Part shown: positions 13,130 through 63,704 of the stretch, in pieces
Layout: each line of letters starts with the position of its first letter
Numbering within the stretch: position 1 is the first letter of the stretch
Source of the DNA: Isoetes taiwanensis
Taxonomy: Eukaryota > Streptophyta > Lycopodiopsida > Isoetales > Isoetaceae
Length of the DNA: 64,000 nucleotides
Assembly: GCA_021234155.1 (NCBI GenBank)
Contig: JAJEKV010000025.1
Location: 15,595,843-15,659,842, forward strand
Direction: 5' to 3'
Made by a program: the position numbers and the translations under genes
The notes under the pieces: generated by a model
What the model saw: only the letters and a program-made list of their open reading frames with translations
What the model was told of the DNA's origin: nothing
The model's database searches: none

Positions 13130-15433
13130 ACATATGATCCCATTCCGGCATCAGTATGTGAAATACCTCTGTGTCCTAATGGCCACCGAGGTAAATTTCT
13201 TGTACCCATTATTATTCTTAACTTCATACCAAACAACATTTCTTATTCCAATTAAAATTCTTTACTTATTCCCAAACAACAAAATGTGCACAATTTCTTA
13301 GAACACTACCTCGAACGTACCTCATGGATCTTGCCAAGCAACGAGTGCAAAAATGACACAAGCAAGCTATGTACCTCATGGAGCTTGGCTACTATCTTTC
13401 TGTTTTCATACATTATCGAACCTAAAGTTGAAAGTCTTAATGTGGTTGCTACATCAAAAAGATTAACGCAATAAAACAATATCAATGTAGGCATTGGAGC
13501 TTAAGCACAAAATAATAGCAAGAGCAAGGAAAATCCAACAAATTAATATAACTTCCCTTTCAGATATTACTTTCAGATGGAAACGACGACGGCTCCACCT
13601 TCAAATGGAAACAACAGCTCCACATCATTGCCAAGTCAATAATGGTATAATAATGGTATCCTATGGATGAAAACAATTGCCAATGTGGCAATCACTATTG
13701 CTAATTTAGTAAGTGACAAGGTAGTTGAATCTAGGCCCAGGTCTCTACCATGGACAATGAAAAAACATTCAATTCAATTTTATATAATGACTCTATATTT
13801 CTAACAAAGGTGTATTTGGTATCTATTGGTTTTCATTTGCTGTAAAAACATTTACGACATGGACATGCAACAACATTCAAGACAGTCGAATGATCACGTT
13901 GATTACCGCTAGTTTGAGACAACAAAATCTGCAAGACAAATGATTTATAGGATTTTTTTTTTTTTCCTTATATGCACTAGGAGCTTGATGTTGGCTCCTT
14001 CCGAAAGAAATTTCAAGCAAAAACAAGCAGATATTGGAAAAGGAACGCCTAAAGCAAGATCAAACATTCAAACATTATACTTTTAGTCTTGTGGTTTTTT
14101 ACCTTCTTCATCCCCTTTCTTCTGAAAGCTTGCGAACTTCTTCTAGTATTAATTTCTTCACATGACGCTTCATATTCAGCTCTGTCAGATCAATCTTAAA
14201 CGTTTCTCGAAGCTGCTTCAGAACATCCAAGAAGGTAAGGGTGCTAAGGTCGACAACATTGTCTAAAAGCTCACTTAGTTCTGCTCTGAGTTCGTCATCT
14301 GTTGGAAATGGATCCTTGTTTTCTTCTTTCTGCCCTATGTCAAAACTTTCATGAGGAGTTTTGAGAATGCCACTATAGCACTTTTCAAGCTGTTTACAGA
14401 AATCTGCTAATGAATAAGGATTGTTACAGTGGTAGATACGAATGTATATTGTATTCTGGTTTGCCACTTCCAATAATGCCAAATCGCCTTCTTTTATTTT
14501 ATGGGACAGGCAGAACTCGCTCCATCCTGCACCAAAACTTTTAAATTTAGGATAAGAATACCATCTGATCTGTTTCTTCTCAGAACCAGGGAGGACCACA
14601 AGGTTCACAGTGCCCCCTTTTTCTACTGAAATATTGGCTGCAAAGCGCTCAGAAAGCGTCTGCAGCAAATCAGCAATACTAGTTACTTAAAAATCGGCAT
14701 GAATTTAGATAGAAAGATAGATTAGAACAAAAAACCTACACATCTTGCGGTCACAAGCTTTGACGATGTGAATTCCAGAATATGATATCGATCATTAAGC
14801 CTTTTCCTTGCAGCTTCTATTATTTCCTTGAGTTTCTTATCAATGCTACTTTGAGGATCAGATCTTGGCTTTTCAGCTTCTTCTACCTTTTCAGCTTCCT
14901 CAAACATCTTCTCTTGTTTCAAATTCGCGGCCATTTTGCCAGAAGAATCTGTATCTGGGTATTCCATCGGTTTCCTCTTGTTCGTCTTCTTCTGAAAATT
15001 GGCGTTGAGATTTGGGGCAGATCCCATATGCTGCGTACCATTTTTCTCGATTACTTCAATCCACAGCACTGAACATTTATAAAGCAAGCATAAAAGAATG
15101 TCTCCTCTTTCTATGCCATGCTCCTGCTCAAACTTTAGCCAGCCATCTCCAAGATATATCTTGTTATCCTCTTTAACAACTTCAACATTATGATCTGCTC
15201 CGTTTGGCCCTTGGATTAACAGATGGGCACCGCGCAAGTGTTTTTTCACGATTTTGAAAGGAAGTTTCTGCATAAGTATTATATGTTATAATGAATCTAA
15301 GCACCAGACATAAAACTTGAACATTTTAGTTCTTACCAAGCAAGGCCTGGATCTAACTCTGGCTGTAAAATGCGCTACCATTTTTGCTGCCATCCTTTCT
15401 TCCTCCGCCTCCCTTCCTTTTTTTGCTCCTTTA
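13130..15433. repeat. inverted duplication arm, left (partner 61570-63704)
   Basis: The reverse complement of this arm matches 61570-63704. It covers the B3 gene and about 1 kb of 3' flank down to the shared phrase CATTCCGGCATCAGTATG (13141), seen as CATACTGAGGTCAGGATG near 63690. Identity looks high by eye, with small indels. The homology ends near 13130 and 63704. Confidence 0.85.
14108..15393 (-). CDS. REM-type protein with two B3 domains and a C-terminal DEK_C domain
   Basis: Three exons: 15393-15337, 15267-14740 and 14659-14108, with introns flanked by GT and AG and all junctions in phase. The predicted product is 378 aa starting MAAKMVAHFTARVRSRPCL. Residues ~5-97 form a B3 DNA-binding domain (LLIQGPNGADH, GDGWLKFEQEHGIERGDILL). 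Residues ~100-190 are a charged linker with an EEAEKVEEAEK stretch. Residues ~196-273 form a second B3 domain (GAGWSEFCLSHKIKEGDLAL). Residues ~315-372 (DDELRAELSELL, DLSTLTFLDVLKQL, FKIDLTELNMKRHVKKLI) match the DEK C-terminal helical DNA/chromatin-binding fold. A nuclear transcriptional role is inferred. A longer frame upstream to 15561 crosses the block X junction, so the MAAKM start, conserved in the paralogue, is preferred. No breaks are visible. Confidence 0.85.
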
Positions 15434-15831
15434 AAATGCAACATGATCATTAGCATTAGATTTGTGACATCTACTTTAAATGGAGGCTTCTCGTATATGC
15501 ACAGCAGTTTGTAGTTAATTCTCATTTTAGACCACAGCATTAATTTCAAATCAACATCCAAAAATGGTCCTAATCAAGTCAATTATTTAAAAAACCTTGA
15601 AATTAATAATAAAATCCAGTACCCCCAATGGTCTGTTTATAAATTGCCGAAACTTGGAGCCCAAATAAAACCTCGCAGCAGCATGGGAGGATGGCAAGGA
15701 TGGATGAAGACTTTATAATTTGGCTTGTTATCGTTCCCGGTTTTAATTTAGAATGGTCTAGGTTTTAATAAGTTCCTAGCTCATGGACAGATAATAAAAT
15801 TGCAATAGTCTTTGTGGTTTTCTTATATACG

Positions 15832-16155
15832 TAAAGACTTTTTACCTTCAATTCTGCCATCGCGTCCAATAGGGCTTTGACACGTGGCGACGCTTTTTTT
15901 CCTAAAAGATTGCAATCTCGCGTGCCGCTGTTCTACCGAAATTTACTCCGCTTTCTGTTGTTTTTACTCGCATCCGGCTGTTTCTACCACGCATTCCTCT
16001 GATTCTACTCTACATTCTGGTCGCAGAATTGAAGGTAAAAAATTCTTTACGTTCTTTAAAGTCCCTCTGAAAATTGCTACGGCTTTCAAGGTGGCCTCCG
16101 TGCTCCGTAGCGTCGGCCACCTTTCAGGAAAAACTTTCGGGACTTCCCCTTTTTA
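15832..16155. mobile_element. MITE-like foldback insertion, only in left copy of X
   Basis: The right copy runs straight from TTATATAC to AATCCGTGC, while the left has ~324 extra bases. The first ~220 are bounded by inverted repeats TTTTTACCTTCAATTCTGC (15839) and GCAGAATTGAAGGTAAAAA (16024), extended outward by GTAAAGA and TCTTTAC. The remaining ~100 bases form a second foldback (AAGTCCC...GGTGGCC...GGCCACC...GGGACTT). No transposase is present. A clean target duplication was not found, so a deletion from the right copy remains possible. Confidence 0.6.
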
Positions 16156-16299
16156 TCCAATCCGTGCTTTGCCATCTTATCCATTGGAATAGTTTTATTT
16201 GTTGAAATTTTATGAGGATGCTATTGACTACGGTGATAAACATGGGTTCATTATCTACCATTTTCTCCTTCGAGCTGGCTTTTTTTCTTCCTTTAGGGT

Positions 16300-16695
16300 T
16301 TGGAGCTTTTAACTGGTTCTCTTTTCTTAGCTTCTTCTTGTGACGGGTTTGGAGCTTTTAACCGGTTCTCATATTGCGCGGATGCTCTCATGTGTAAGTT
16401 CTGCGATATTATGAAGTTGTTGAAACAACTGTTGCCAGACATCCGATTCTTGGTTAACATGGTATTTGAGTTTGAGAATTACGATTGCATTAATGTGACG
16501 ATTTCCGTAGGGCAATTCCTATTCCTACAAGAGTTGAGAGACAATAGCCAGCTTTATCTGGCATTTATCAACTCTACAAGAGTAAAGGTGGACATTGTTT
16601 GTGGAGCAGAGAAGGATTCCTTTTGTCGACTAGAGCATGTCAATATTCTAATGACGCTCACCATTCTGCATGAAGGGACTTCAGGTTTCCAATAG
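16300..16695 (+). CDS. uncertain 131-codon ORF in block X
   Basis: The open frame begins MELLTGSLFLASSCDGF and has no recognised domain. In the right copy (58536-58927) the same sequence is split by a frame change near 58727, which argues against a conserved protein. A short internal duplication (TTTGGAGCTTTTAACYGG twice) lies at its start. Confidence 0.2.
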   Translation: MELLTGSLFLASSCDGFGAFNRFSYCADALMCKFCDIMKLLKQLLPDIRFLVNMVFEFENYDCINVTISVGQFLFLQELRDNSQLYLAFINSTRVKVDIVCGAEKDSFCRLEHVNILMTLTILHEGTSGFQ

Positions 16696-16861
16696 ATTTT
16701 TCCTACTGCCAAGTCTGCTGCTTATGGGTTCAAGACATATTTGTTGAAAATCGAATATGTAGCTTTTATAGCATTTCTAATTTGGGCACAGAGATTTGAT
16801 GGCAGACTATGCTATTTCAGATAAACTATCTTGCTGCCTTATTTTCTTATTATTATAAGTT

Positions 16862-17838
16862 AGTAGAAAAGGTGCCCAGCATTGCTGGGCTTTCCATCAG
16901 GATTAAAGTCAAAAGTTAAAAAAGGTATGATTGTAACCTATACGCATTCCATTGGTTACATGTGAAAGTGTCCGAGGTCAACATACATATTAATAACCTA
17001 TGAACAACCCATTGGTTATATGGAAAAGTGTCTTAGTACTTATTTTAATATATCTAACATGTCCGTGATAGTTGCCAACTGACCAGCATGAGAAACTGAA
17101 ATTTTACGCTACGGTAGTCTAAGGTGGTTTCTGGTGGGCACAATCTCGAATTCCCTAAACAATGTCAGAACAAAATACGTATTAGCAAATGACCCCAGTA
17201 GAGATTTGTTTCAACCACAATGACATGGCATAGTCGTGTTTAGCAATTATAGTTGATGTATGTCTTTCTCAACAAAACGAACATGTTACTCCACACTCTT
17301 CCGACCTCTAGCCCATGCATCTACAAACACGAAATTCAAATTATACATCCACAAAATGTCCATCGTCAATTTGCTAGAGACACGCCCCTCCAATTTGCTA
17401 TACATGTGACCCTCCTACTCCATTCCATGCAAGCTGCAATGTTCTCTCCTTGTTGGCGAACTCATCGAACGAAACAGCATTCAAATTATTCCAGAAAATA
17501 GATGACTTGAACAAAATAGTAGACAAATTGTGCCAGAAAATAGGTGACAAATAAATATCACATGGAAAAAAATACATTCATCGGAATAGAGCAAAAATAT
17601 CGCACAAAATACCTTACTTATACATGCACAAATGCATATTTGGATAAACTTTGGACATTATATAAGCTCTAGCATATATTTGCGCAAAAATTTAGTTTTT
17701 AAATTTAAGCCATCAAAAGTTAGACCTTAGATTTAGACTTTGCCTGGCAACATTATTAACAAACTTTTAAACCTTAGATTTATAAAAGCTATTCAAAGCA
17801 CTGTAGCTCAGGATTATTAAAAACATTGTAGTAGGAGA
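16862..17838 (-). mobile_element. Helitron-like element in block X, left copy
   Basis: On the minus strand the sequence ends with hairpin GCCCAGC-aat-GCTGGGC (16874-16890), then ACCTTTT and a degraded CTAG (CTAC here, intact at 59086-59089), followed by T. This is the Helitron 3' signature. The 5' end is uncertain; TCTCCTACTACAATG read on minus from ~17838 is the best candidate, giving ~1 kb, but the preceding base is not the expected A. Helitrons move by rolling circle; this copy has no helicase and would be non-autonomous. Confidence 0.5.
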
Positions 17839-18769
17839 AAACTAGTTAAACCTAGTGAGAACAGTGCATACGACCATTAGATGGCTCTATAACTCATCAT
17901 CCGGTAGTTACCTTTAGCATTAATGGTTTCAAGTTTGGAGGGTTGGCTTATAGTTGAGTAGACATATATTTAAAATGGATTTTGTCAATTTGAAATGGAC
18001 ATATATAGATGCGTAAGAACCTTTTTCAAGATGTGGTAGTATGTGAATGTAGTAGGTGTTGGTAGTATGTGACCATTATTTGAACTATTTTGTGGTCCAA
18101 GGTGAGTTTATAATTATGTAAATGTGTGTACATTTACAAGGAAAATCAGAATCCATTGCTTATTTATGTTTGGGCAATTGAGTCCTATATTTTTTGTAAG
18201 ACTTTGGGAAAGAAATTGACATCAAAGTTACAATTTTGATAGCGATTTGGTTGGAAAATGGCCATTTAGGTTGCAACTTCCTTGGAAAAAAAATTGAAAA
18301 ATGGCCAATTTGGCTACGCTTAGATGAAACAAAGACTGAGGGGAATGGCTAATTGATTCTACTTAGGAAATGTTCTAGGGATACTAAAATTTTCTTTGCT
18401 CCAACTAAGTTCTTAGATTTTGAGAGCAGCACCACCTAGAGTTGGAAACGCCTTTGCACCTCCAATTGCACCTAAGATTTGGCGAGCCAAAAAGACATGC
18501 TATGGTGGCTTTGCCCTTCGACAACAAAAGAGTTTTTCAAGTGTGGACCGTTAGATTGCTCATGCCAATCTGAACCGCCAAAGTTAGGGCTGGATATATG
18601 ACACACCTAATAACATTATAATATAGGAATATAAAATTGAACCATATATTTGTAGTAAGAAATGGGTCTAGAGCACACCGGGATTTTTTGGCCTACCTCT
18701 TGCACATGGCATACGACATACCCCTATAGGTATAGATGCATTCCCGTACCCCCTCCCCCCAAAAACCAA

Positions 18770-19247
18770 ATCCTCTTCCCCAAGTTTGCTTTACTGCTAG
18801 TTATTTTTTTTCTGACATTGAATGTGACAAGTATGGGGCTTATTATTTCAAATCCTATTTCTCAAGCCTGCCCTACTGCTAGTTTATTTTTCTGGCATTG
18901 GATATGATGGCCAGTCGATGTGACAACTAGGAGGTTTAAAATAATAGCCTGACATTACTTACCCTAGTGGTACTTAATACTTGCCCCATTGCTAGTTAGT
19001 TTTTCTAGCATTGGATGTGACAAGCAAGGGAAACTCTATTGGCCTCAGTGGACGATAAAAAAATCATTCTCATTTCTCAAGCCTGCCCTACTGCTAGTTA
19101 ATTATTCTGGCATTACTTACCCTAGTGGTAGGTAATACTTGCCCTAGTGCTAGTTAGTTTTTCTAGCATTGGATGTGACAAAGTAATAGGCACACTTTCT
19201 CAAGCCTGCACTACTGCTAGTTAATTATTTTATAATTTCTCAAACCT
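18770..19247. repeat. degenerate tandem array, left copy
   Basis: Repeating phrases CTCAAGCCTGCCCTACTGCT, TTTTTCTAGCATTGGATGTG and TGACATTACTTACCCTAGTG recur in an irregular ~100-bp rhythm. The same array, with different copy structure, is at 61010-61565. Related phrases (CTGACATTGAATTTGAC) recur at ~22190 and in the 5' flanks of the truncated B3 genes. Confidence 0.7.
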
Positions 19248-19717
19248 GCCACTGACACTTAATTGTGACAAGCAATAGGGTTAAAATAATAGTCTGACAT
19301 TGCATGTGATACTGGCACGTGGCTTGAAATAATAGTCCTTGTTTTTAGGTTTTTAGTTTTTATGAGATGCCACGACCGGTATTTTGCCATTACTGCGCAT
19401 TAAAAGAGGATCTTGGAGTCTCAGAAAAACCTTTGCAGATTATTGAGAGTATCGTAGAGAATATTGTTAAAAAGAAAATTGTTTTCTCTGTTATTCAGAT
19501 GCTTCGGGGCAGAGATATGTTGTTCGAAGACTTCAATTCCGCCTTAACCCAACAACTGCTTAGAAAGAAGGCGCCTGAATCATCGTAGATATAAGCTTAT
19601 AAAATCCAAAATACCTTTCAATGGAACGAAAACAAAAAGAGGCGGAGGAAGAAAAGATGGCAGCAAAAATGACTGCATATTTTACAGCCAGTTCGTCAAT
19701 AAGCATTTGTGCAGTGG
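19248..19717 (+). pseudogene. 5' part of a truncated B3 gene
   Basis: The plus-strand promoter-side sequence and frame 19367-19588 (SEKPLQIIESIVENIV..., ending APESS) match the reverse complement of 57288-57617. They are followed by MERKQKEAEEEKMAAKMTAYFTA, the first coding exon of a B3 gene like the one at 57255. The match then jumps to a sliver of B3 exon 2 (AAGCATTTGTGCAGTGG, 19702) and ends, joining at ~19717 to an unrelated B3 fragment on the other strand. The gene is therefore a 5' remnant. Whether the 73-codon upstream frame is an exon or a leader ORF is unclear; it is predicted helical. Confidence 0.65.
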
Positions 19718-19809
19718 AAAGCATATGCAGTCTTCAAAATGACAAAATATAGTTTTCCCATTACATTTTACCCGCATTTACATAATCATAAGCAGCTAAT
19801 CCATTGCTT

Positions 19810-20406
19810 TCACACGTCTGGACAGTTTTTCCTTGGGAGTTTGAAGAGATGAACTTTGAGAGTTCTAGGACCTAATACTTCTAACTCTAATTTATCTCCA
19901 ATTTTAAGATGGTGATCTTTTTTAAAATCACTCCATCCAGCACAAAAGCCTCCTCTCCCTGTCCAACGCAACTCATGGCTGCAGCCATCTAGGCAAGAAA
20001 ATGTCACATAATCACCACATTCCAGACCTGGCATGTGCTTCCTGATAAATTCTGTGCCAAAATTCTGTTATAAAACGAAAAACAATGTTAGAACTGTTCA
20101 GAAACTTTATCATATCAAGTATGTATGACTTAGAACTTCGTCCTTGAGATGGAGACTATTGTTACTTACAAGTTCTTTATCAAACCTATATTTTGTCACC
20201 GCCACATGAATAGATGGTTTTCTCAGATTTTTACTGTAATGTTGAGCCTTCTTATGCTTGAATGGCTTTGCAAAAAGTTCTGCAGCAGCTTTCTTCTCAG
20301 CAAAGGTGTTGCATTGGTAGATATAAAAGGTGATGGAATTTTGGCCTGTTAATTCCAACAGTGCCATATCACCTACTTTGATACCATGCATACGAGCAAA
20401 TTGGCA
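19810..20406 (-). pseudogene. B3 gene fragment, two domains (duplicate of 22746-23360)
   Basis: Two minus-strand exons: ~20406-20170 (FARMHGIKVGDMALLELTGQ, the C-terminal half of a B3 domain, then KHKKAQHYSKNLRKPSIHVA) and 20064-19810 (MPGLECGDYVTFSCLDGC, GRGGFCAGWSDFKKDHHLKI, ending FKLPRKNCPDV and a stop). The intron has GTAAGT and AACAG ends. The same region occurs at 22746-23360, where it is attached to its upstream exons. Here the 5' side stops abruptly inside a B3 domain at ~20406 and abuts Helitron-helicase coding sequence. Within the retained part both exons are open, better preserved than the second copy. Transduplication by a Helitron is the favoured explanation. Confidence 0.7.
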
Positions 20407-20629
20407 TGCCAGAGTCCGCGAGCTTGTGCGGGCATTCAATGGGAAAGTCCCTTAATTCATCATAGTCATCATCCAAATTGAAAGCATCAATGCTTGTGTA
20501 GATAACTTTTTCTCCTTCCATGCGCTCGATGACGATGTCGTTAGTTCGCAATGTGTCTTCATTTTTTGGACAGAGTATTGCCTTTTTGTGCATAATTGGA
20601 AATTGTTCTTGTGATATGTATGTTAACAA
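20407..20629 (-). mobile_element. Helitron Pif1-like helicase fragment
   Basis: The minus-strand frame contains AILCPKNEDTLRTNDIVIER, GEKVIYTSIDAFNLDDDYDE, FPIECPHKLADSGMP. It corresponds to the C-terminal part of plant Helitron helicases (ILxPKNxxVxxxN, then SxD, then L...SGMPPH). Only about 70 residues are present; the frame runs on into the adjacent B3 fragment. No Rep domain was seen nearby. Confidence 0.6.
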
Positions 20630-20639
20630 TTATTTACTA

Positions 20640-22670: not shown

Positions 22671-23608
22671 CTTGCTGGAAAGCATATGTAGTTTTCAGAC
22701 CGACAAAATATAGTTTTCTCATTACATTTTACCCAATTTACACAATCATAAGCAGCTAATCCTTGGGAGTTTGAAGAGATGAACTTTGAGAGTTCTAGGA
22801 CCTAATACTTCTAACTCTAATTTATCTCCAATTTTAAGATGGTGATCTTTTTTAAAATCACTCCATCCAGCACAAAAAGCCTCCTCTCCCCTGTCCAACG
22901 CAAACTCATGGCTGCATCCATCTAGGCAAGAAAATGTCACATAATCACCACATTCCAGACTGGCATGTGCTTCCTGATAAATTCTGTGCCAAAGTTCTGT
23001 TATAAAACGAAAAACAATGTTAGAAATGTTCAGAAACTATCTATCTATCATATCAAGTATGTATGACTTAGAACTTCGTCCTTGAGATGGAGACTATTGT
23101 TACTTACAAGTTCTTTATCAAACCTATATTTTGTCACCGCCACATGAATAGATGGTTTTCTCAGATTTTACTTGTAATGTTGAGCCTCCTTATGCTTGAA
23201 TGGCTTTGCAAAAAGTTCTGCAGCAGCTTTCTTCTCAGCATAGGTGTTGCATTGGTAGATATAAAAGGTGATGGAATTTTGGCCTGTTAATTCCAACAGT
23301 GCCATATCACCTAGTTTGATACCATGCATACGAGCAAATTGGCGCCATCCGCTACCGAGACCTTTGTATGTAGAAGTAGATAACCACCTAATCTGTTTGC
23401 TCTTGCCACCAAAAACTGTTATGTCCACCATGCTGCCATGTTGTGCAGAAATATAGGCTGAAAACCTCCTTGGAAGCTCCTGAAAAGACCAAGTTTTTCA
23501 TAATTAACCAAGATGCATAATAAAATGGCAGAAGAAAACCTACAAGATGCATAATAAAATGGCACAAAAAAACCTACACGTTTGCTCTTCAGTTTGTGTG
23601 CTGTGAAC

Positions 23609-23796
23609 AGAAAGTATATGGAAAGAGCTAAAACAGAGATGAGTTAACTTGTATTGATCTAATTTTGGTACATGATCTATCCCCTATATGTAGGGGTATG
23701 TATTAATGCTATAACCGTGCACCAACTGCAACGGTACAATTAACTGAACGGTACATTCTGTAACTAGTTGGTGGCTGTTGTCAGGTACTTCCAACA
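23609..23796 (-). repeat. Copia 3' LTR
   Basis: 188 bp, starting TGTTGGAAGTACCTGACAAC on the minus strand and ending ACTTTCT. By eye identical to the other LTR. Confidence 0.95.
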
Positions 23797-23904
23797 CTCC
23801 TCCTCAGCCACATGTTTGCACGAATGACTGTTCAGACAACAAAGAAAGTTTACAGAAACTTTGTACACAAAAGTGTTGAGGCTGGTTTAGTCTCTTTCTC
23901 CTCC

Positions 23905-26900
23905 TCAGCTGAAACATGGTTGTGACATCAGGCCCATAGCAGTGATGAACTGTTCATGTTTGTCTCTGCCTAGTGCCTTTGTAAGGACGTCGGCAACCAT
24001 GGTGGATGTGGGTGTGTAATGGAGCTGAATAAGGCCAGCTAGAACTTTCTCCCTGGTGAAGTGATAGTGAATCTCAATGTGCTTGGTTTGGGGATGAAGT
24101 ACAGGGTTTCGAGCAAGAGCTGCGCACGCCAGGTTGTCATTGAAGAGCATGATGGGTGGCTGCTGAGGGAACCCCAATTCCTGTAGGAGTTGGCGCAGCC
24201 ACATAGCTTCTCTGACAGCTGCAGATGCTGCCATATATTCTGCTTCGCAGCTAGACATAGCTACACACGATTGTTGCTTGCTGCTCCAAGTGATCACGCC
24301 TCCGCCAAGGTTGAAACAGAAGCCAGTTGTGGATTTTCGGAAGTCGACATCGCCTCCCCAATCTGCATCCACAGAACCAGAGAGAATTGTATGAGTGGAA
24401 TTGTAAAGAATGCCATGTGATTGGGTGCCCTGAAGGTATCGAAGGATGCGCTGAGCAGCTTGCCAATGCTGGATGCCAGGGTTATGCATGAATTTGCTAG
24501 TGGCTGCAACAGCGAACGCAATGTCTGGACGGCTGCAAGTGGCAATGTGAAGGAGGCAGCCGACGAGTTGACTGTATGGTTTATCAGCCATGAGTTGTGT
24601 TTCCTCCGGAGTGGAAGGGGACATTTTTGCAGAGAGTTTCAGATTTAGCATGGCAGGTGTGGAGATGGATTTGCAATTTTCCATGCCAAATCGTTTAAGA
24701 ATGCCTCGAATTGTCTTGGTTTGATGGATGAAAAGATGCCTTGAGGGAGGATGACGGGAAATCTGAAAACCAAGGCAGTAGGTTGCTTCCCCAAGGTCGG
24801 TCATTTTAAATTCCTTGGTCAACTGCTGCTTGAGTGTCTGAAGACAATGAATAGAGTTAGTAGCTATGAGAAAATCGTCAACATATAAGATAACAAGGAG
24901 AATGTAATCAGAGGTGTGCTTGAAATATACATTCCAGTCTGCATGAGCACGTGTGAGTCCAATATGCATAAAAAAGGAATCAATCCGAGTGTACCAAGCC
25001 CGGGGTGATTGTTTTAAACCGTATATGGATTTCTTAAGCCTGCATACAAGATGTTCTTGGCCAGGAGCAATAAAACCCGCAGGCTGCTCCATGTAGACTT
25101 CCTCGGCAAGGTCTCCATTCAAAAAAGCGGTCTGAACATCCATTTGGTGCAGTTCAAGATCCTGTTCTGCAACAATTGACAGCACGGCTCGAATTGATGT
25201 TAGTTTAGCTACTGGAGAAAATACCTCATCGTAGTCGAGCCCAGGAATTTGCGTGAAGCCACGAGCTACCCAACGAGCTTTGTAGCGAGCAATTTTGCCA
25301 TCAGCTTGCTCCTTTAATTTAAATAGCAATTTTCCACTGATAATTTTTCGATTTTGTGGCGCCGGGACAAGCTCATAGGCTCCTGCCTCTTGTAGGGACT
25401 GAAATTCAGCTTGCATTGCTTTGTGCCAATGAAGGGCATCTTCGCGGGAGTCAAGTTCCTTCAATGTGGAAGGAGAGGTTTGTTCTGAGAGATAAGCACA
25501 TGAGAGGTCACAATGAAAGGCATAGAAGTTCAAAAGTCTTTCTGTAGGTTTCCAGGGCCTTCTTGGGCGAGCAGTATGATCCCCTTCTGGAAATTCGTCA
25601 AGAGAAAGGTCTGCTGGAGTGTCTACAGGAGGAGGTTCTTGTACTGGGGCAGTGACAGGGGGGAGATCTTGTTCAGAGGGAGGAGCATCCTGGACCATCC
25701 ATGTATGGTTTAAACGGTGTTGGGGCAAAGGAGCATTGGATGGAGCAGTGGGCTTATGAAGGGAAAAATCTGTCTCATGGAATAGCACACTGCGTTTTTC
25801 CAGAATTTTGCCAGAGGCTGGGTGAAACAATCGATAAGCTTTTGAAATTTGACTATAGCCAATGAATATGCAGGGTAAGGAATGAGAGGATAACTTATCG
25901 CGGGCGTCAAGAGGGATATGAGAGTAAGCTGTGCATCCAAATACCTTGAGATGCTTGACAGATGGTTTGATTCCACTCCATAATTCCTCAGGAACAATCT
26001 TGTTAAGTGCTTTGGTGGGCAGCCGATTGGTGAGATAGACTGCTGTGGCAGCAGCTTCTGCCCAGAACTTGCGGTGGATGCCATGATTTTGAAGAAGAGT
26101 GTTAGCACATTCCACCAAAGTTCGGTGTCTACGTTCTGCCACACCATTTTGATGGTGTTCGGAGGGAACTGCCAGTTGGCGAGAGATTCCTGCATTTGCT
26201 AAACATTCAGAGAACTCATTAGATAAAAACTCCCCTCCTTTATCAGATCGTAGGGTTTTAATAGTGCAGCCCGATTCGTTTTCAACGTGAGCTTTCCAGG
26301 TGCTAAAAATAGAGAAAGTATCAGATTTTTTCTTTAGAAAATAGATCCAAGCTTTTCGTGTGAAATCATCTACAAACAAGACATAAAAGGTAGCTCCTCC
26401 TAGACTGGGACTTTTGGTTGGGCCCCATAGATCTGTATGTACGAGTTGCAGTTTTTGAGATGCTCTGGTGGTGGCTTGTTTGGGAGCAGGGGATTGGTGT
26501 TGTTTCCCTTTGAGGCATCCTGCACAAACTTGATGCGAGATTTTGTCAGAAATCACAAGATTATTGACTAGTTTGTGTGATACCATTTGTTGAAGTCTTT
26601 CTGGATTTGGGTGGCCAAGACGTTCATGCCAGATCTGCACTGTGCTTGCTTGATGGATGGATATGTGTGCCTCGGGAGGTGCAGCTATCCGATACATGTT
26701 TCCTTGTCTAATACCCCTAGTGATCACATTTCCTGATTTGCGACAGTACAGGATGCATCCAGTGTCAATGATACGGAATTCTATGCCCAGATCTGACATT
26801 CGAGCAACAGATATGAGATTCTTGGGAGTTTCTGGACAGTAGAGTACGCCAGAAAGTAGACGAAGGCCTTCTGGTGTATGGACTTCAGCTTCTCCAATGC

Positions 26901-27990: not shown

Positions 27991-28168
27991 CTCACTTTAA
28001 ACCTACCGAACAGATCACCTGAAGATGCCTCTCTACTGGATTCGAATCTCAGATTCGTCTCCTCCCAGTTCCAGGCCTTCGAGATCTCGCTTACGGTATG
28101 CAACAGGTACTTCCCCACCTGCTTCCCAGGTTCCGATTGTGTCTTGGGACACGATGGCTCTGATACCA

Positions 28169-28356
28169 AGAAAGTATATGGAAAGAGCTAAAACAGAGAT
28201 GAGTTAACTTGTATTGATCTAATTTTGGTACATGATCTATCCCCTATATGTAGGGGTATGTATTAATGCTATAACCGTGCACCAACTGCAACGGTACAAT
28301 TAACTGAACGGTACATTCTGTAACTAGTTGGTGGCTGTTGTCAGGTACTTCCAACA
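28169..28356 (-). repeat. Copia 5' LTR
   Basis: 188 bp, by eye identical to 23609-23796. It is followed on the minus strand by the tRNA-Met primer-binding site. Confidence 0.95.
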
Positions 28357-29222
28357 TGAACTCCATGATATCACTTGGATTCTCAAGTCTTTCCTTTGCT
28401 GCTTCTATTTCGTGTCTTATTTCCTCCAGTGTTCTATCCCTGCCAACTTTAGAGCATGGCATTTTTCTTAAAACAGTCTTTTCCATATTCATAGCCACCC
28501 TGTTGGTAGAACAATCTGTATGTTTAACCTTCTTCTGAAACTTGGCAGAATCTGAAAGACGTTTGGTCTTCATCTTCTGGGGTTTGGCAGAAAACATCTT
28601 CTGCATCCTTTTGGTCTCTATTATTTCAATTTCAAGCAGCAACTCAGAACATTGGAAAAGCTTGCAGAAAAGAATGTTTCCTTTTTCTATGCCATTTTCT
28701 GCTTTCAATTTCCTCCATCCATCTGCAAGGTATATTTTGTGATGCCGTTTGATAACATAAACACTATATTGCGCACCGTTTGGGCCTTGAACAAATAGAG
28801 AGACACTGCAGAGATGCTGCTTGATGCTGTGGAAAGGAAGTTCCTACACAATACAGAGATTTTAAGTAGCAGGTTGGCATGAAATGAAGCAGATTGGCAC
28901 CAAATGAAAACTGAAATATAAGAAGGATGAAACGGGCAACTCATAACTTAGATTACCAAGCAAGGTTCGGGCCCAACTGCAGCTGCAAAATGTTGTAGCA
29001 TTCTTCTCGCCATTTTTCCCACAATTCCAAAACTGAAATTTTGTTTTAAATATCAAGCCGCCATCATTCTTTTCAGCATCAACACTAATTTCTACAAAAA
29101 GAGGTCGTCTAAGATTTATGATGGAAAATACTGTAAAAACAGGCCTTTGGTTTTCCTTGGCAGGGAAAAAAAAAAACTTTTTAAGAAAGTTTCACCTTTT
29201 GCCCTCCACTGAGGAAAAAATT

Positions 29223-29341: not shown

Positions 29342-29403
29342 AAATGAAATTGGTGATACACTACTTCCCTTTGCAAAAAGTCTCATATATCTTTTATAAT
29401 CAA

Positions 29404-42595: not shown

Positions 42596-42599
42596 TTAT

Positions 42600-45120: not shown

Positions 45121-45142
45121 ACCTCTCTAAATTATTACTAAA

Positions 45143-45602: not shown

Positions 45603-45639
45603 TACATGATGAGCATTTGAAGTTGTTATGCAACTTGGA

Positions 45640-49390: not shown

Positions 49391-49394
49391 ATGC

Positions 49395-49460
49395 GATAAT
49401 TCCGAAGGTTGCTACCCCAGGTGAAGAGTTGCTACCCCAGGTTGCTACCCCGAAGGTTGA
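49395..49460. repeat. short triplicated GTTGCTACCCC motif
   Basis: CGAAGGTTGCTACCCCAGGT, GAAGAGTTGCTACCCCAGGT and TGCTACCCCGAAGGTTG follow one another. Confidence 0.8.
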
Positions 49461-49632
49461 TCAGTTTCAACTATTGTCATCTTTGGCTCCCTCATAATGA
49501 GACGGAGGCATTAAACCCACTCGATCTCATAATAGAAAACCCCTACGTTCAAACCTTCCTTAACAACTGCCATAGGGTTGTCGTCTTAAGGGTCTTAAAG
49601 TCATAATCTATAGGAGGTGTATACGACAAGTT

Positions 49633-50421: not shown

Positions 50422-50429
50422 TATTGAGA

Positions 50430-51227: not shown

Positions 51228-51321
51228 ATGTTGTACGGTGGCATGGCCACCAGACCACTTTCCGATGTGGACAAAGCGGCCCACCGGAAAAGTGGGACCG
51301 ATGGCCATGCCACCACAACAT
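51228..51321. other. 94-nt near-perfect hairpin (miRNA-precursor- or MITE-like)
   Basis: The left arm ATGTTGT-(AC)-GGTGGCATGGCCA pairs with TGGCCATGCCACC-ACAACAT; an inner arm CCACTTTCCG pairs with CGGAAAAGTGG around a ~20-nt loop. Only small bulges interrupt ~30 pairs. No known miRNA was recognised. Confidence 0.75.
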
Positions 51322-54237: not shown

Positions 54238-54239
54238 GA

Positions 54240-54336
54240 AAAATTCTGATTGGCACTGGCTGGAAATAGTGAAAGTGAAGCCAAAAATACAAAATTCTGA
54301 TTAGCACTGGCTGGAAATAATGAAAGTCAAGCCAGC
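54240..54336. repeat. 51-bp tandem duplication
   Basis: AAAATTCTGATTRGCACTGG then CTGGAAATARTGAAAGTSAAG occurs at 54240 and 54291. Confidence 0.85.
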
Positions 54337-54339
54337 TCT

Positions 54340-56600: not shown

Positions 56601-56649
56601 TACATTACTTAGCTTCTTTGCATAAATCTTCTGGTTGTTTCTTAATCCC

Positions 56650-57617
56650 CAACTTCTGGAAGTTTGGTATTCTCCTCTCGTATTAGATTCTTCACATGGC
56701 ACTTCATATTTAACAACTCTGTCATATCAAACTTAAACTTGTCTGCTGTTTCAGAACATCCAAGAAGGTGATCTTGTTAAGGTCGACAACATAGTGTAAA
56801 AGCTGGCTCATTTCTGCTCTGAATTCGTCATCCATTGGAAAGGGCCCTCTCTTATTTTATGGAACAGAACTCTTTTTATCTTCTTGTTTCAAATTCACAA
56901 ACATTTTGCTCAAATAATTTGTACCTGAGTAATCTTCCACTTATTCTTTCCTTTTTTTCTCGACTGAAACTTTGTCCAGCCATCTCCAAGATATATCTTG
57001 TTATCCTGTTTAACAACATAATGATCTGCTCCGTTTGGTCCTTGGATTAACAGAGGGCTACTGCACAAACGCTTCTTGACTTTTGTAAAAGGAAATTTCT
57101 GCATAAGTTGTGACACAGAATTTGAACACCAGACCTATAAAATTGAATGTTTTGACTCTTATCAAGCAAGGATTGGCTCTTACACAGGCTGTAAAATATG
57201 CAGTCATTTTTGCTGCCATCTTTTCTTCCTCCGCCTCTTTTTGTTTTCGTTCCATTGAAAGGTAATTTGGATTTTATAAGCTTATATCTACGATGATTCA
57301 GGCGCATTCTTTCTAAGCAGTTGTTGGATTAAGGCGGAATCAAAGTCTTCAACAACATAATCTCTGTCCCGAAGCATCTGAATAACAGAGAAAACAATTT
57401 TCTTTTTAACAATATTCTCTAAGATACTCTCAATAATCTGCAAAGGTTTTTCTGAGACTCCAGGATCCTCTTTTTTAATGCTAAGAATCCAAAGTAAGTT
57501 ATACCACTCGTCGTGGCATCTCATAAAAACTAAAAATCTATTATTTCAAGCCACATGCCAGTATCACATGCAATGTCAGACTATTATTTTATGCCTATTG
57601 CTTGTCACATTCAATGC
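56650..57617 (-). pseudogene. B3-DEK_C gene remnant
   Basis: On the minus strand: upstream frame 57524-57288 (SEKPLQIIESILENIV ... APESS), first coding exon (MERKQKEAEEEKMAAKMTAY, ATG at 57255), B3 exon from ~57104 (LLIQGPNGADHYVVKQDNKI, YLGDGWTKF). Then follow a shortened linker and a DEK_C-like tail (DDEFRAEMSQLL, VVDLNKITFLDVLK) to ~56680. The second B3 domain and part of the first are missing compared with the gene at 14108-15393. It is the counterpart of the 5' remnant at 19367-19717 and lies divergently to the intact-looking B3 gene across block X. Confidence 0.7.
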
Positions 57618-57779
57618 CAGACCACAGCATTAATTCCAAATCAACATCCAAAAATGGTCCTAATCAAGTCAATTATTTAAAAAACCTTGAAATTAATAAT
57701 AAAATCCAAAGACCCAATGGTCTCATTATATATTGCCGAAACTTGAGCCCAAATAAAACCTCGCAAATGGGAGGATGGC

Positions 57780-58261
57780 AAAGGTAAGGTTATCGGTCTA
57801 GCTAAGGTCGCAACCAAAAATCGCGGGTAGGTCGTCGTCCGTCCGCCGTATTTGGCACGTACGTCGGTGGCTCGCCGGGGGACGCATACCGAACCACGCA
57901 TTTTGGACACGCCGTCAGGCGAGGCCCGCTAGGGCCGAAGTTCTCGCACGCGTTTGATAACCCAGGGCCGGTTAGGGCCGGGCTGTTATCAAAAGTGACA
58001 TCCGGGCTTACGACCGATAACCGCCTTTACCGGCCTTATTCTGCGTTAAAATTTGTCATTACGGAGGAGTAATGATAATTAATTATCATCACTCCTCCAA
58101 AGATTAGTTATCGAGATTGAGGAGGATGATACCATTATCATCACCCTCCAATATCGATAATTAATTATCATCACTCCTCCGGTCTTCCATAACTAGTTAT
58201 CGCATTTTCTAGTAATGATATGCAAAAAAAAATGACTCTCCCTTTACATACAAGAGGCCGA
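57780..58261. mobile_element. ~480-bp GC-rich, palindrome-rich insertion, only in right copy of X
   Basis: The left copy reads GATGGCAAGGATGGATGAAG continuously; here ~480 bases separate GATGGCAA from AAGGATGG. The ends have weak inverted repeats (TTATCGGTC and GGCCGATAA). Inside are TTTGATAAC...GTTATCAAA arms (~57951-57990) and repeated ATCATCACTCCTCC palindromes. No protein is encoded. The element class is unknown; it could be a foldback or MITE-like transposon. Confidence 0.65.
58063..58098. repeat. 36-bp palindrome with one mismatch
   Basis: GGAGGAGTAATGATAATT is followed by its near-exact complement AATTATCATCACTCCTCC. A half copy, GATAATTAATTATCATCACT, recurs at ~58156. Confidence 0.9.
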
Positions 58262-59085
58262 TAAGGATGGATGAAGACTTTATAATTTGGCTTGTTATCG
58301 TTCCAGGTTTTAATTTAGAATGGTCTAGGTTTTAATAAGTTCCTAGCTCATGGACAGATAATAAAATTGCAATAGTCTTTGTGGTTTTCTTATATACAAT
58401 CCGTGCTTTGCCATATCCATTGGAATAGTTTTATTTGTTGAAATTTTATGAGGATGCTATTGACTACGGTGATAAACATGGGTTCATTATCTACCATTTT
58501 CTCCTTTGAGCTGGCTTTTTTTCTTCCTTTAGGGTTTGGAGCTTTTAACTGGTTCTCTTTTCTTAGCTTCTTCTTGTGACGGGTTTGGAACTTTTAACCG
58601 GTTCTCATATTACGCGGATGCCCTCATGTGTAAGTTCTGCGATATTATGAAGTTGTTGAAACAACTATTGCCAGACATCCGATTCTTGGTTAACATGGTA
58701 TTTGAGTATGAGACGATTACATTAATGTGACGATTTCCATAGGGCAATTCCTATTCCTACAAGAGTTGAGAGACAATAGCCAGCTTTATCTGGCATTTAT
58801 CAACTCTACAACAGTAAAGGTGGACATTGTTTGTGGAGCAGAGAAGGATTCCTTTTGTCGACTAGAGCATGTCAATATTGTAGTGACACTCACCATTCTG
58901 CATGAAGGGACTTCAGGTTTCCAATAGATTTTTCCTACTGCAAAGTCTGCTGCTATGGGTTCAAGACATATTTGTTGAAAATCGAATATGTGGCTTTTAT
59001 AGCATTTCTAATTTGGGCACAAAGATTTGATGGCAGACTATGCTATTTCAGATAAACTGTCTTGCTGCCTTATTATTATAAGTTA

Positions 59086-60062
59086 CTAGAAAAGGTGCCC
59101 AGCATTGCTGGGCTTTCCATCAGGATTAAAGTCAAAAGTTAAAAAATATATGATTGTAACCTATACGCATTCCATTGGTTACATGTGAAAGTGTCCCAGG
59201 TCAACATACATATTAATAACCTATGAACAACCCATTGGTTATATGGAAAAGTGTCTTAGTACTTATTTTAATATATCTAATATGTCCGTGATAGTTGCCA
59301 ATTGACCAGCATGAGAAACTGAAATTTTACGCTATGGTAGTCTAAGGTGGTTTCTGGTGGGCACAATCTCGAATTCCCTAAACAATGTCAGAACAAAATA
59401 CGTATTAGCAAATGACCCCAGTGGAGATTCGTTTCAACCACAATGACATGGCATAGTCGTGTTTAGCAATTATAGTTGATGTATGTCTTTCTCAACGAAA
59501 CGAACATGTTACTACACACTCTTCCGACCTCTAGCCCATGCATCTACAAACACGAAATTCAAATTATACATCCACAAAATGTCCATCGTCAATTTGCTAG
59601 AGACACGCCCCTCCAATTTGCTATACATGTGACCCTCCTACTCCATTCCATGCAAGCTGCAATGTTCTCTCCTTGTTGGCGAGCTCATTGAACGAAATAG
59701 CATTCAAATTATTCCAGAAAATAGATGGCTTGAACAAAATATAGACAAATTGTGCCAGAAAATAGGTGACAAATAAATATCACATGGAAAAAAAATACAT
59801 TCATCGGAATAGAGCAAAAATATCGCACAAAATACCTTACTTATACATGCACAAATGCATATTTGGATAAAGTTTGGACATTATATAAGCTCTAGCATAT
59901 ATTTGCGCAAAAAATTAGTTTTTAAATTTAAACCATCAAAAGTTAGACCTTAGATTTAGACTTTGCCTCGCAACATTATTAACAAACATTTAAACCTTAG
60001 ATTTATAAAAGCTATTCAAAGGATCAGAGCTCGAGATTATTAAAAACATTGTAGCAGGGAGA
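59086..60062 (-). mobile_element. Helitron-like element in block X, right copy
   Basis: On minus: GCCCAGC-aat-GCTGGGC (59097-59113), ACCTTTT, CTAG (59086-59089), T. Same element as at 16862-17838 but with the CTAG intact. The 5' end is uncertain. Confidence 0.5.
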
Positions 60063-61009
60063 AAACTAGTTGAACCTAGTGAGAACAAAGGCATACGACC
60101 ATTAGATGGCTCTCGCAACTCATCATCCTAGGTTACCTTTTAGCATTAATGGTTTCAAGTTTGGAGGATTGGCTTATAGTTGAGTAGACATATATTTAAA
60201 ATGGATTTTGTCAATTTGAAATGGACATATATAGATGCATAAGAACTTTTTTCAAGATGTGGTAGTATATGAATGTAGTAGGTGTTGGTAGTATGTGACC
60301 ATTATTTGAACTATTTTGTGGTCCAAGGTGAGTTTATAATTATGTAAATGTGTGTACATTTACAAGGAAAATCAGAATCCATTGCTTATTTATGTTTGGG
60401 CAATTGAGTCCTATATTTTTTGTAAGACTTTGGGAAAGAAATTGACATCAAAGTTACAATTTTGATAGCGGTTTGGTTGGAAAATGGCCATTTAGGTTGC
60501 AACTTCCTTGGAAAAAAATTTGAAAAATGGCCAATTTGGCTACGCTTAGATGAAACAAAGACTGAGGGGAATGGCTAATTGATTGTACTTAGGAAATGTT
60601 CTAGGGACACTAAAATTTTCTTTGCTCCAACTAAGTTCTTAGATTTTGAGAGCAGCACCACCTAGAGTTGGAAACGCCTTTGCACCTCCAATTGCACCTA
60701 AGATTTGGCGAGCCAAAAAGCCATGCTATGGTGGCTTTGCCCTTCGACAACAAAAGAGTTTTTTCAAAGTGTGGACCGTTAGATTGCTCATGCCAATCGA
60801 ACATGCCAAAGTTAGGGCCGGATATATGACACACCTAATAACATTATAATATAGGAATATAAAATTAAACCATATATTTGTAGTAAGAAATGGGTCTAGG
60901 GCACACTGGGGTTTTTTGGCCTACCTCTTGCACATGGCATACGACATACCCCTATAGGTATAGATGCATTCCCGTACCCCCTCCCCTCAAAAACCAAATC
61001 CTCTTCCCC

Positions 61010-61570
61010 AAGTTTGCTTTACTGCTAGTTATTTTTCTGACATTGAATGTGACAAGTATGGGGCTTATTATTTCAAATCCTATTTCTCAAGCCTGCCCTA
61101 CTGCTAGTTTATTTTTCTGGCATTGGATATGATGGCCAGTCGATGTGACAACCAGGAGGTTTAAAATAATAGCCTGACATTACTTACCCTAGTGGTACTT
61201 AATACTTGCCCCATTGCTAGTTAATTTTTCTAGCATTGGATGTGACAAGCAAGGGAAACTCTTTCTCAAGCGCATTGGATGTGACAAGCAAGGGAAACTC
61301 TTTCTCAAGCCTGCCCTACTGCTAGTTAATTATTTTGGCATTACTTACCTTAGTGGTAGTTAATACTTGCCCTAGTGCTAGTTACTTTTTCTAGCATTGG
61401 ATGTGACAAGTAAGAATAGAATAGAATAGAATAGCATTGGATGTGACACTCTTTCTCAAAGCCTGTTTCTAGCATTGGATGTGACAATTAAGAATAGAAT
61501 AGAATAGAATACTCTTTCTCAAGCCTGCACTACTGCTAGTTAATTATTTTAGCATTTCTCAAACCTGCCC
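61010..61570. repeat. degenerate tandem array with GAATA microsatellites, right copy
   Basis: Same phrases as 18770-19247, plus (GAATA)n runs at ~61413-61431 and ~61493-61508 not seen on the left. Confidence 0.75.
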
Positions 61571-63704
61571 TGTGTTGCATTTTAAAGGAGCAAAAAAAGG
61601 AAGGGAGGCGGAGGAAGAAAGGATGGCAGAAAAAGTGGTAGCACATTTTACAGCCAGCGTTAGATCCAGGCCTTGCTTGGTAAGAACAAAAATGTTCAAG
61701 TTTTAGGTCTGGTGCTTAGATTCATTAATTTATAACACTTATTTATGCAGAAACTTCCTTTCGAAATCGTGAAAAAGCATTTGCACAGTGGTCCTCTGTT
61801 AATCCAAGGGCCAAACGGAGCAGATCATTATGTTGAAGTTGTTAAAGTGGATAACAAGATATATCTTGGAGATGGCTGGACAAAGTTTGAGCAGGAGCAT
61901 GGCATAGAAAGAGGAGACATTCTTTTGTGCTTGCTTTATAAATGTTCAGTGCTGTGGATTGAAGTGTTCGAGAAAAATGGTATGCAGCATATGGAATCTG
62001 TCCCAAATCTCAACGCCAATCTTCAGAAGAAAACGAAAAAGAGGAAATTTATGGAATACCCAGATACAGATTCTTCTGGCAAAATGGCTGCGAATTTGAA
62101 GCAAGAGAAGATATTTGAGGAAGCTGAAAAGGTAGAAGAAGCTGAAAAGCCAAGATCTGATCCTGAAAGTAGCGTTGATAAGAAACTCAAGGAAATAATA
62201 AAAGCTGCAAGGAAAAGGCTTAATGATCGATATCATATTCTGGAATTCACATCGTCAAAGCTTGAGACCGGAAAATGTGTAGGTTTTTTGTTCTAATCTA
62301 TCATTCCTATATAAATTCATGCCGATTTTTAAGTAACTAATATTGCTGATTTGCTGCAGGCGCTTTCTCAGCGCTTTGCAGCCAATATTTCAGTAGAAAA
62401 AAGGGGCGTTGTGAACCTTGTGGTCCTCCCTGGTTCTGAGAACAAACAGATCAGCTGGTATTCTTATCCTAAATTTAAAAGTTTTGGTCGAGGATGGAGC
62501 GAGTTCTGCCTGTCCCATAAAATAGAAGAAGGCGATTTGGCATTATTGGAAGTGGCAAACCGGAATACAATATACATTCGGATCTACCACTGTAACAATC
62601 CTTATTCATTAGCTGATTTCTGTAAACAGCTTGAAAAGTGCTATAGTGGCATTCTCAAAACTCCTCACGAAAGTCTTGACATAGGGCACAATGTCAAAAA
62701 TAAGTGAGCTTTTAAACAATGTTGTTCTGAAACGTTTAAGGTTGATCTGACAGAGCTGAATATGAAGCGTTTGAATGTTTGATCCTTTTCCAATATCTGG
62801 TTGTTTTTGCTCGAAATTTCTTTCCGAAGGAGCCAACATCAAGCTCCAACATCAAGCATATAAGGAAAAAAAAAAATTCTATAAATCATTTGTCTTGGAG
62901 ATTTTATTGTGCCAAACTAGCGGTAATCAACTTGGTCATTCTACTGTCTTGAATGTTGTTGCATGTCCATGTCCTAAATGTTTTTACAGCAAATAAAAAC
63001 CAAATAGGCCTTTGTTAAGAATATAGATACCAAATACACCTTTGTTAGAAATATAGAGTCATTATATAAAATTGACTTGAATGTTTTTTTATTGTCCATG
63101 GTAGAGACCTGGGCCTAGATTCAACTACCTTGTCACTTACTAAATTAGCAATAGTGATTGCCACATTGGCAACTCTCTTCATCCATACGACACCATTATC
63201 ATACCATTATTGACTTGGCAATGATGTGGAGCTGTTGTTTCCATTTTAAGGTCGAGGTGTCGTTTCCATCTAAAAGTAATATCTGAAAGGGAAGTTATAA
63301 TAATTTGTTGGATTTTCCTTGTTCTTGCTATTATTTTGTGCTTAAGCTCCAACACCTACATTGGTCTTGTTTTATTGATCTTTTTGATGCAGCAATCACA
63401 TTAAGACTTTCAACTTTAGGTTCGATAATGTATGAAAACAGAAAGAGAGTAGCCAAGCTCCATGAGGTACATAGCTTGCTTGTGTCATTTTTACACTCGT
63501 TGCTTGGCAAGATCCATGAGGTACATTCCAGGTAGTGTTCTAAGAAATTGTGCGCATTTTGTTGTTTGGGAAGAAGTAAAGAATTTTAATTGGAATAAGA
63601 AATGTTGTTTGGTATGAAGTTAAGAATAATAATTGGTACAAGAAATTTATCTCGGCGGCCATTAGGGCACAAAGGTATTTCACATACTGAGGTCAGGATG
63701 GGAT
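61570..63704. repeat. inverted duplication arm, right (partner 13130-15433)
   Basis: Reverse-complement match of the left arm, from TGTTGCATTTTAAAGGAGC to about 63704, covering the B3 gene and its 3' flank. Confidence 0.85.
61623..62707 (+). CDS. REM-type protein with two B3 domains; DEK_C domain lost
   Basis: Exons 61623-61679, 61751-62278 and 62360-62707, in phase, predict 310 aa starting MAEKVVAHFTASVRSRPCL. Residues ~5-97 are the first B3 domain (LLIQGPNGADHYVEVVKVDN, GDGWTKFEQEHGIERGDILL). Residues ~196-273 are the second B3 domain (GRGWSEFCLSHKIEEGDLAL, NTIYIRIYHC). Compared with the paralogue at 14108-15393, the sequence after SLDIG has lost internal segments and shifts frame, so the protein stops at 62707 and the DEK_C region survives only as fragments (LTELNMKR-like at ~62750). 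DNA binding could be retained; a chromatin-contacting tail would not. It could be a shortened functional gene or an early pseudogene. Confidence 0.75.

Follow-up and report, generated by a model that had tools for sequence, protein, structure and literature searches.

Inversions on chromosome 2 of Drosophila mojavensis are attributed to breakage and end joining, some of them beside duplicated genes (PMC3355041). Compared with these, the rearrangement described below spans just ~4 kb, sits inside a segmental duplicate and is accompanied by an apparent loss of sequence at the breaks rather than by an inverted duplication. Inversion by recombination between inverted repeats shares with our case the facing repeats that surround the spacer of one of our two loci today, but it differs in that the spacer edges of the other locus lack such repeats and that the order of markers is contrary to such an exchange. 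Regarding the genes concerned, the one named gene A below bears a DEK_C domain, while the term "DEK" is absent from the main text of the paper on REM-type B3 genes (PMC2688026). No paper on a B3 domain with DEK_C was found by keyword in the open-access literature, and no title on the present B3 locus was returned by such a keyword search, which cannot show that the locus is unpublished.

Both copies of the locus are present in the window, i.e. the whole 64-kb stretch of DNA analyzed, in reverse orientation and ~42 kb apart, at 13.1-19.7 kb (left) and 57.2-63.7 kb (right). Each comprises an outer arm, a spacer X and the side of a second B3 gene:

13125-15443, minus strand: left-hand outer arm A, with gene A and its 3' flank; pairs with 61573-63716 in inverted orientation.
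15529-19250, plus strand: left copy of spacer X, in the order judged ancestral; direct match to 57619-61569.
19254-19715, plus strand: left B side, comprising the beginning (truncated) of the second B3 gene and the DNA upstream of it; 19264-19692 is inverted relative to 57609-57184.
57184-57609, minus strand: B' side, comprising the beginning of B' and the upstream DNA that belongs to it; inverted match to 19264-19692.
57619-61569, plus strand: right copy of spacer X, apparently flipped relative to its flanks, from BLAST pairs and edge alignment.
61573-63716, plus strand: right-hand outer arm A'; pairs with arm A in inverted orientation.

Self-BLAST of the window (rows of at least 100 bp, E up to 1e-5) pairs the flanks in inverted orientation three times, left 13125-14044 with right 63716-62783, 14315-15443 with 62704-61573, and 19264-19692 with 57609-57184. 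X is paired directly, again in three pieces (15529-15697 with 57619-57781, 15696-15830 with 58263-58397, and 16151-19186 with 58390-61413), and no inverted X-to-X pairing figures among the self-BLAST rows. The comparisons of X and arms rely on these BLAST pairs and on affine-gap pairwise alignment, the first X block being misplaced by MAFFT local alignment (right-hand insertion). The original prediction had described the loci as inverted copies with X in direct orientation in both, and had concluded that X flipped inside one of them; the inverted flank pairs around a direct X bear this out, and the breakpoints it had given for X stand with the edges placed by junction alignment. What we consider likely is a micro-inversion in one copy of an inverted segmental duplication carrying a plant-type B3-gene cluster, sealed by end joining and followed by conversion within X.

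The direction of the change is indicated by a minisatellite, which is continuous over the X|B border in the left locus and divided between both ends of X in the right one:

18816-19320, plus strand: minisatellite, unbroken from X into B in the left locus; repeat matches, with the B side matching units.
57599-57621, minus strand: half-unit of the divided minisatellite on the B side, at the B'|X border; repeat matches and junction alignment.
61041-61571, plus strand: X-side part of the split minisatellite, adjoining A'; repeat matches and alignment.

In each locus the B-side half resembles the array units better than any of 500 shuffles, whereas four controls, run on three further edge segments, had 43, 230, 402 and 367 of 500 shuffles as good; the shuffles for array, edges, divergence and tract preserve letter content only. 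Furthermore, the two right halves fit one unit: among the seven places scanned for the spacing from CCTGCCCT to the next TCTGGCATT-type start, four give 16 bases and one gives 17, the junction and the final left unit being the two places with no match. Because the array is unbroken on the left and split on the right, the flip probably took place in the right locus, where it would also have produced the facing CATTGRATGTGACAAGCA copies; the minus-strand copy at 57599-57616 is accounted for as the half, left on the B side, of an array unit that the event severed. The left locus is probably the better candidate for the ancestral order, a polarity resting on this array argument in a comparison of two copies. 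Against this reading, the left array junction is itself altered, being ~17 bp shorter than the reconstructed unit on our reading of the alignments.

The original prediction had also proposed CATTGRATGTGACAAGCA repeats near both edges as exchange sites. Indeed, a flip through homologous exchange between facing minisatellite copies could draw on those now found in the right locus, at 57599-57616 (minus strand) and, among others, 61473-61490 (plus strand), for which the inverted match score of 15 was equaled in 0/100 shuffles. However, all three CATTGRATGTGACAAGCA matches of the left locus (up to 3 mismatches) are on the plus strand near the X|B side, none being detected with this search near A|X, and no match lies between 61491 and A', which disagrees with homologous recombination between inverted repeats, where both orientations should carry facing copies at either edge and hybrid copies at the junctions. 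Moreover, had the exchange involved the final array copy (61473-61490), 61491-61569 would have stayed with its flank, yet this segment adjoins A' in the right locus and its left counterpart adjoins B; an exchange at the B-edge copy would leave a copy between X and A', where none was matched; and any former copy in the 85 bases found only at the left A|X border left no clear trace. We therefore hold such an exchange to be very unlikely, and the role proposed for the repeats is not retained, given a left A|X border devoid of a copy, a contrary marker order and a minus-strand copy that is accounted for as a cut array unit.

The preferred reading, breakage followed by end joining, draws on the anatomy of the junctions. 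By alignment, the A|X edge falls at 15443|15529 on the left and 61573|61569 on the right, and the B|X edge at about 19264|19250 on the left and 57609-57621|57619 on the right. GACCACAGCATTAATT has two occurrences in the window, at 15530 and 57620, both on the plus strand, for 0.02 expected, and TTTCTCAAACCTGCC has zero-mismatch copies at 19236 and 61555, both on the plus strand as well; the latter is an array unit and not a unique X edge, with 8 matches when up to 2 mismatches are allowed. Two short segments are private to one locus:

15444-15528, no strand: 85 bp between A and X in the left locus only; no counterpart at the right junctions.
61570-61572, no strand: CTG separating X from A'; its CT extends the array consensus and its G is a possible filler.

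At the B'|X junction, AGA (57619-57621) is common to the B-side half-unit and X, giving a 3-bp overlap, and an overlap of this size can occur by chance. Overall, 85 bp and ~16 bp are missing from the right junctions, which display 1-3 bases of possible filler; with this little homology and these small losses, they have the appearance of broken ends sealed by end joining. Three comparisons of the left X edges gave exact inverted matches of at most 6-8 bp, none beyond chance (97/100, 60/100 and 40/40 letter shuffles were equally good), so that, assuming a left ancestral order, there were no extended inverted repeats before the event. The 85 left-only bases have other matches of just 10-11 bp in the window, are faintly array-like on the plus strand (43/500 shuffles equally good), and could be a gain of the left locus rather than a loss of the right one.

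Other candidates were considered and rejected. A site-specific invertible cassette, with its precise and lossless flip, does not agree with the 85 bp of left-only DNA, the split array unit and left edges without inverted sites. Crossing over between the A and B genes, which face each other and are 77-79% alike in matched blocks, was set aside because the B side retains ~350 bp past the A/B homology, which puts the breakpoints at non-corresponding places. More events are required if the duplication was direct and two genes were replaced than if it was inverted and followed by one flip.

The history that we propose would thus start with an A-X-B locus, with genes A (minus strand) and B (plus strand) on either side of spacer X, duplicated in inverted orientation ~42 kb away. 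Two breaks would have occurred in the right copy, one inside the minisatellite at X|B and the other ~50 bp upstream of the A' start codon, and X would have been rejoined in reverse by end joining with the loss of ~85 bp and 16 bp, as the junction anatomy suggests. The X copies, now direct between non-matching flanks, would have been homogenized by gene conversion unable to pass the X edges, as the divergence step detailed below suggests, and the arms would have kept diverging. Finally, A' would have gained the minisatellite directly upstream in replacement of its original upstream DNA, and the DEK_C domain would have been lost separately.

The arms differ by 5.3% (128/2433) and X blocks 2-4, i.e. 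X without its first block, by 2.1% (68/3163), with a Fisher p of 4e-10 in a test that treats sites as independent. Arm A sites differing from A' amount to 51/910 and 60/1114, and inclusion of the 3' end of the gene gives the same rate for the gene (64/1179). The first X block (8/162) is at arm level (p 1.0 versus arms, p 0.03 versus the remaining X), and a change point within X alone is not significant (114/300 shuffles as good). The best low-divergence tract covers left 15647-19106, with 62/3065 differences inside and 142/2693 outside (0/100 shuffles as good), and its limits within 3 log units (15245-15802 and 18927-19377) include the X edges. This tract lies slightly inside X at both ends, with a log-likelihood gain of 22.5 versus 17.9 for X exactly, and substitutions within 16151-18815 are unclustered. 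Left 14045-14324 (3' flank to gene), two private insertions, gap columns and 19251-19267 were left out of these counts. The tract displays the reduced local divergence between duplicates that is expected of gene conversion, and from the step between arms and X we infer that conversion confined to X took place after the flip. Under the flip model, the divergence step requires this second event.

A weaker rival is that the right X was re-copied and not flipped: a double-strand break would have removed the old inverted spacer, and the left X would have served as template for a replacement that ended up in direct orientation. A single event would then account for the lower age of X (2.1%, blocks 2-4) relative to the arms (5.3%), and the ends of X show little homology, as templated insertions can. 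On the other hand, the copied ends must match the kept flanks within ~16 bp and 85 bp, which is automatic for a flip and has a chance of ~4e-4 here (arithmetic, with ends uniform over ~3.8 kb), and the best tract lies slightly inside X at both ends as under conversion, a modest edge (22.5 versus 17.9). Re-copying hence appears unlikely to us, and a flip with later conversion is the reading retained.

The content of X bears on two further explanations. Each copy holds an insertion of its own, with lengths taken from the shift between self-BLAST pieces:

15831-16156, no strand: MITE-like insertion of ~328 bp in the left X only, folding back on itself internally; the right site lacks it.
57782-58262, no strand: insertion of ~483 bp in the right X only, with terminal inverted repeats TTATCGG/CCGATAA; self-BLAST shift.

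Two stop-to-stop frames of at least 90 aa are found in the left X and none in the right X. As a 132-aa frame of the left X (16297-16695) has no Pfam match and its region differs by a net 4 bases in length in the right copy, X was treated as non-coding. A mobile element inserted twice in the same orientation would also yield a direct X between inverted flanks, but X occupies an equivalent position between A and B in each locus, the left X|B border is bridged by the array, which makes X native there, no terminal repeats or target duplication were seen by eye at the X ends, and the long frames are confined to the left copy, the scanned one being without Pfam match. Such a double insertion seems to us extremely improbable. 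Duplicates separated by 42 kb can mislead an assembly, and an artefact at the X borders could mimic a flip; however, a collapse or misjoin would not readily give copies diverged by 2-5%, distinct X insertions and private junction bases, and we consider an artefact highly improbable. A micro-inversion remains the preferred reading for what follows.

The genes of the two loci are as follows:

14108-15393, minus strand: gene A, 378 aa, two B3 domains and DEK_C; inferred spliced model with GT-AG introns.
56639-57260, minus strand: B' gene, the right-locus copy of the second B3 gene, in a decayed state; two blocks 77-79% identical to gene A.
61623-62707, plus strand: gene A', 310 aa; exons 61623-61679, 61751-62278 and 62360-62707.

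Gene A (exons 15393-15337, 15267-14740 and 14659-14108) matches Pfam B3 in two stretches (3e-15) and DEK_C (7.4e-06), and its B3 score of 56.4 bits against a Pfam cut-off of 30.1 qualifies it as a B3 transcription factor. Single exons of A and A' score 25.4-27.4 bits, the two B3 exons of A' reaching 26.5 and 25.4 bits, under the curated 30.1, and no Pfam match to DEK_C was obtained in A'. A sequence search of the PDB with gene A gave 3 matches (E 0.098-0.24), zero of them B3 proteins. Between A and A', dN/dS is 0.78 over 304 codons, with synonymous and non-synonymous rates that do not differ (Fisher p 0.59).

The suggestion that a flip swaps the promoter-side sequence of each B3 gene holds for A', the minisatellite being now ~50 bp upstream of its ATG, and fails for B', which retained ~350 bp of its own upstream DNA (57260-57609). 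Most likely, the flip was an unremarkable accident of cutting and rejoining that placed a new sequence upstream of one gene, and the upstream replacement of A' together with its DEK_C loss is compatible with a gene drifting to loss. It is a long shot that the right locus, with X now between facing minisatellite parts, may re-flip and switch the upstream DNA of A' between individuals or cells or, more modestly, that the flip divided the duplicate into three independently converting blocks, giving one duplication two molecular ages. As one duplicate preserves the probable original order, one sequence suffices to trace the breakpoints, their polarity and the later conversion, and the case cautions that repeats facing each other across an inversion can result from it instead of having caused it. 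If both orientations occur in the population, they would make it possible to test whether micro-inversion exchanges promoters in a duplicated transcription factor cluster.

Long open B3 frames are kept by the outer genes A and A' only. In B', 119 bp separate the two matched blocks (56844-56964) where gene A has 815 bp (14311-15127); about 700 bp are hence missing between these blocks, and B' is without a second B3 domain. The left inner B3 piece is decayed and ends near 19.7 kb.

Self-BLAST bore out the geometry of the original prediction, an inverted duplicate of one B3-gene locus with the ~4-kb central spacer X in direct orientation in both copies. The outer arms carrying the B3 genes (A, 13125-15443, and A', 61573-63716) match in inverted orientation, as do the sides holding the decayed second B3 gene (B, 19264-19692, and B', 57609-57184), and X matches directly (15529-19250 vs 57619-61569), broken into pieces by private insertions. 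Gene A and these insertions lie as follows:

14108-15393, gene A: 378 aa, 3 exons separated by GT-AG introns; two B3 domains, with DEK_C at the C-terminus
15831-16156, private insertion in left X: ~328 bp, with foldback
57782-58262, private insertion in right X: ~483 bp, short terminal and internal inverted repeats

Both insertions look like small DNA transposons, and BLAST found no second copy of either elsewhere in the window. The predicted edge sequences of X are present in the window, where the 18-bp repeat of the minisatellite array has 11 matches with at most 3 mismatches (0.15 expected), a count that is not due to chance.

The left minisatellite extends from X (18816) across the X|B edge into B (~19320). 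The right array is cut: its B-side half (57599-57621, minus strand) is joined to B', and the remainder (61041-61571, plus strand) adjoins A'. The B-side half aligns to array units over 39 bases on the right and 38 on the left (0/500 shuffles as good in each locus), which makes it a genuine array unit on both sides. By the same measure, the 85 left-only bases (shuffles as good: 43/500 on the plus strand, 230/500 on the minus strand), the left end of X (402/500) and the A' upstream bases (367/500) are not array units. Joined end to end, the right halves fall ~16 bases short of standard unit spacing. The simplest reading takes the cut array as the derived state, in which case the right locus would be the flipped one. 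This polarity is inferred from the two loci, and against it weighs that the left junction itself falls ~17 bp short of the reconstructed unit. The minisatellite is also ~94 bp longer on the right (61041-61569) than on the left (18816-19250); the right array contains a 39-bp unit in duplicate and, beside A', AGAATAGAAT-type runs.

A flip by homologous exchange requires facing repeats at both edges beforehand. The predicted exchange at the 18-bp repeat finds no such substrate in the left locus, where inverted matches between the X edges do not exceed chance and whose 3 matches to the repeat all lie on the plus strand; the right locus has facing copies (inverted match score 15, 0/100 shuffles as good) because the array was cut. 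Exchange at the last array copy predicts that 61491-61569 stays with its own flank; if the copy at the B edge had been used, a repeat copy should lie between X and A'. Neither was seen, nor were the testable features of a precise switch. Right junction 1 reads CAATGCC-AGA-CCACAGC, the AGA being common to both sides, a 3-bp overlap that alone has no significance. Right junction 2 reads CCTGCC-CTG-TGTTGCA, in which CT agrees with the array and the G is possible filler. At the A side, 85 bp were either lost from the right locus or gained in the left. This anatomy bears the mark of breakage and end joining, and the event is a clean but ordinary rearrangement. It resembles known end-joining inversions that lie beside duplicated genes, such as those in PMC3355041, and, in its setting among duplicated B3 genes, the REM genes of PMC2688026.

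Substitutions affect 51/910 aligned sites in the A 3' flank, 60/1114 in gene A and 17/409 on the B side, vs 8/162, 1/133, 58/2625 and 9/405 in X blocks 1-4. The arms differ from X blocks 2-4 (p 4e-10), and a difference is also seen between the non-coding arms and just the main X block (p 2e-6); between the arms and X block 1 there is none (p 1.0). A scan placed a low-divergence tract at left 15647-19106 (0/100 shuffles as good), with an uncertainty that takes in both X edges, and differences inside 16151-18815 are not clustered (dispersion 0.49). A conversion tract ending at X is expected after a flip, because by then the two X copies had lost their matching flanks. The locus would thus have been duplicated, X then flipped and finally homogenized by gene conversion. 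Re-copying of X in one step likewise accounts for its lower divergence, but makes the fit of the X ends a coincidence.

A distance of 50 bp separates the A' start codon (61623) from the junction (61573), and the DNA upstream of A' is therefore now almost wholly the right X end with its minisatellite, while upstream of the gene A start (15393) lie the 85-bp segment and the left X end. The anticipated swap of upstream sequence holds for A'; B' retains ~350 bp of its own upstream DNA. Gene A' keeps the two B3 exons, its frame stops at 310 aa, and DEK_C was not found in it. Over 304 shared codons the A and A' proteins are 88% identical, and dS (0.072) and dN (0.056) do not differ significantly (p 0.59). 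The combination of B3 and DEK_C in one gene may be unusual; a keyword literature search for 'B3 domain' together with 'DEK_C' found no papers. Self-BLAST shows the second gene decayed in both loci, B being truncated near 19.7 kb and B' missing ~700 bp that gene A has, among them the second B3 domain.

The window is plant-like, and the B3 superfamily is termed plant-specific in the abstract of PMC8296579. Pfam B3 matches occur at 4 places (genes A and A', 22746-23497 and 28244-28843), with single-frame scores below the curated cut-off; self-BLAST adds 3 further B3 pieces (B, B' and 19715-20405) that resemble these in DNA sequence, and the frame 20110-20451 gave no Pfam match. Segments 19715-20405 and 22676-23343 are direct copies (91.6%, self-BLAST) of a piece of another B3 gene on the minus strand, the first starting about where the left B remnant ends. 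Nearby lies a further element:

23609-28356, Copia-type retrotransposon: 188-bp terminal repeats, identical to each other

These identical repeats and its single open frame (1363 aa, 23905-27996) point to a recent insertion, probably within a B3 gene, since the minus-strand B3 frame 28244-28843 reads into its terminal repeat. At 6269-7336, a 361-bp unit forms 3 tandem copies, 92% matching.
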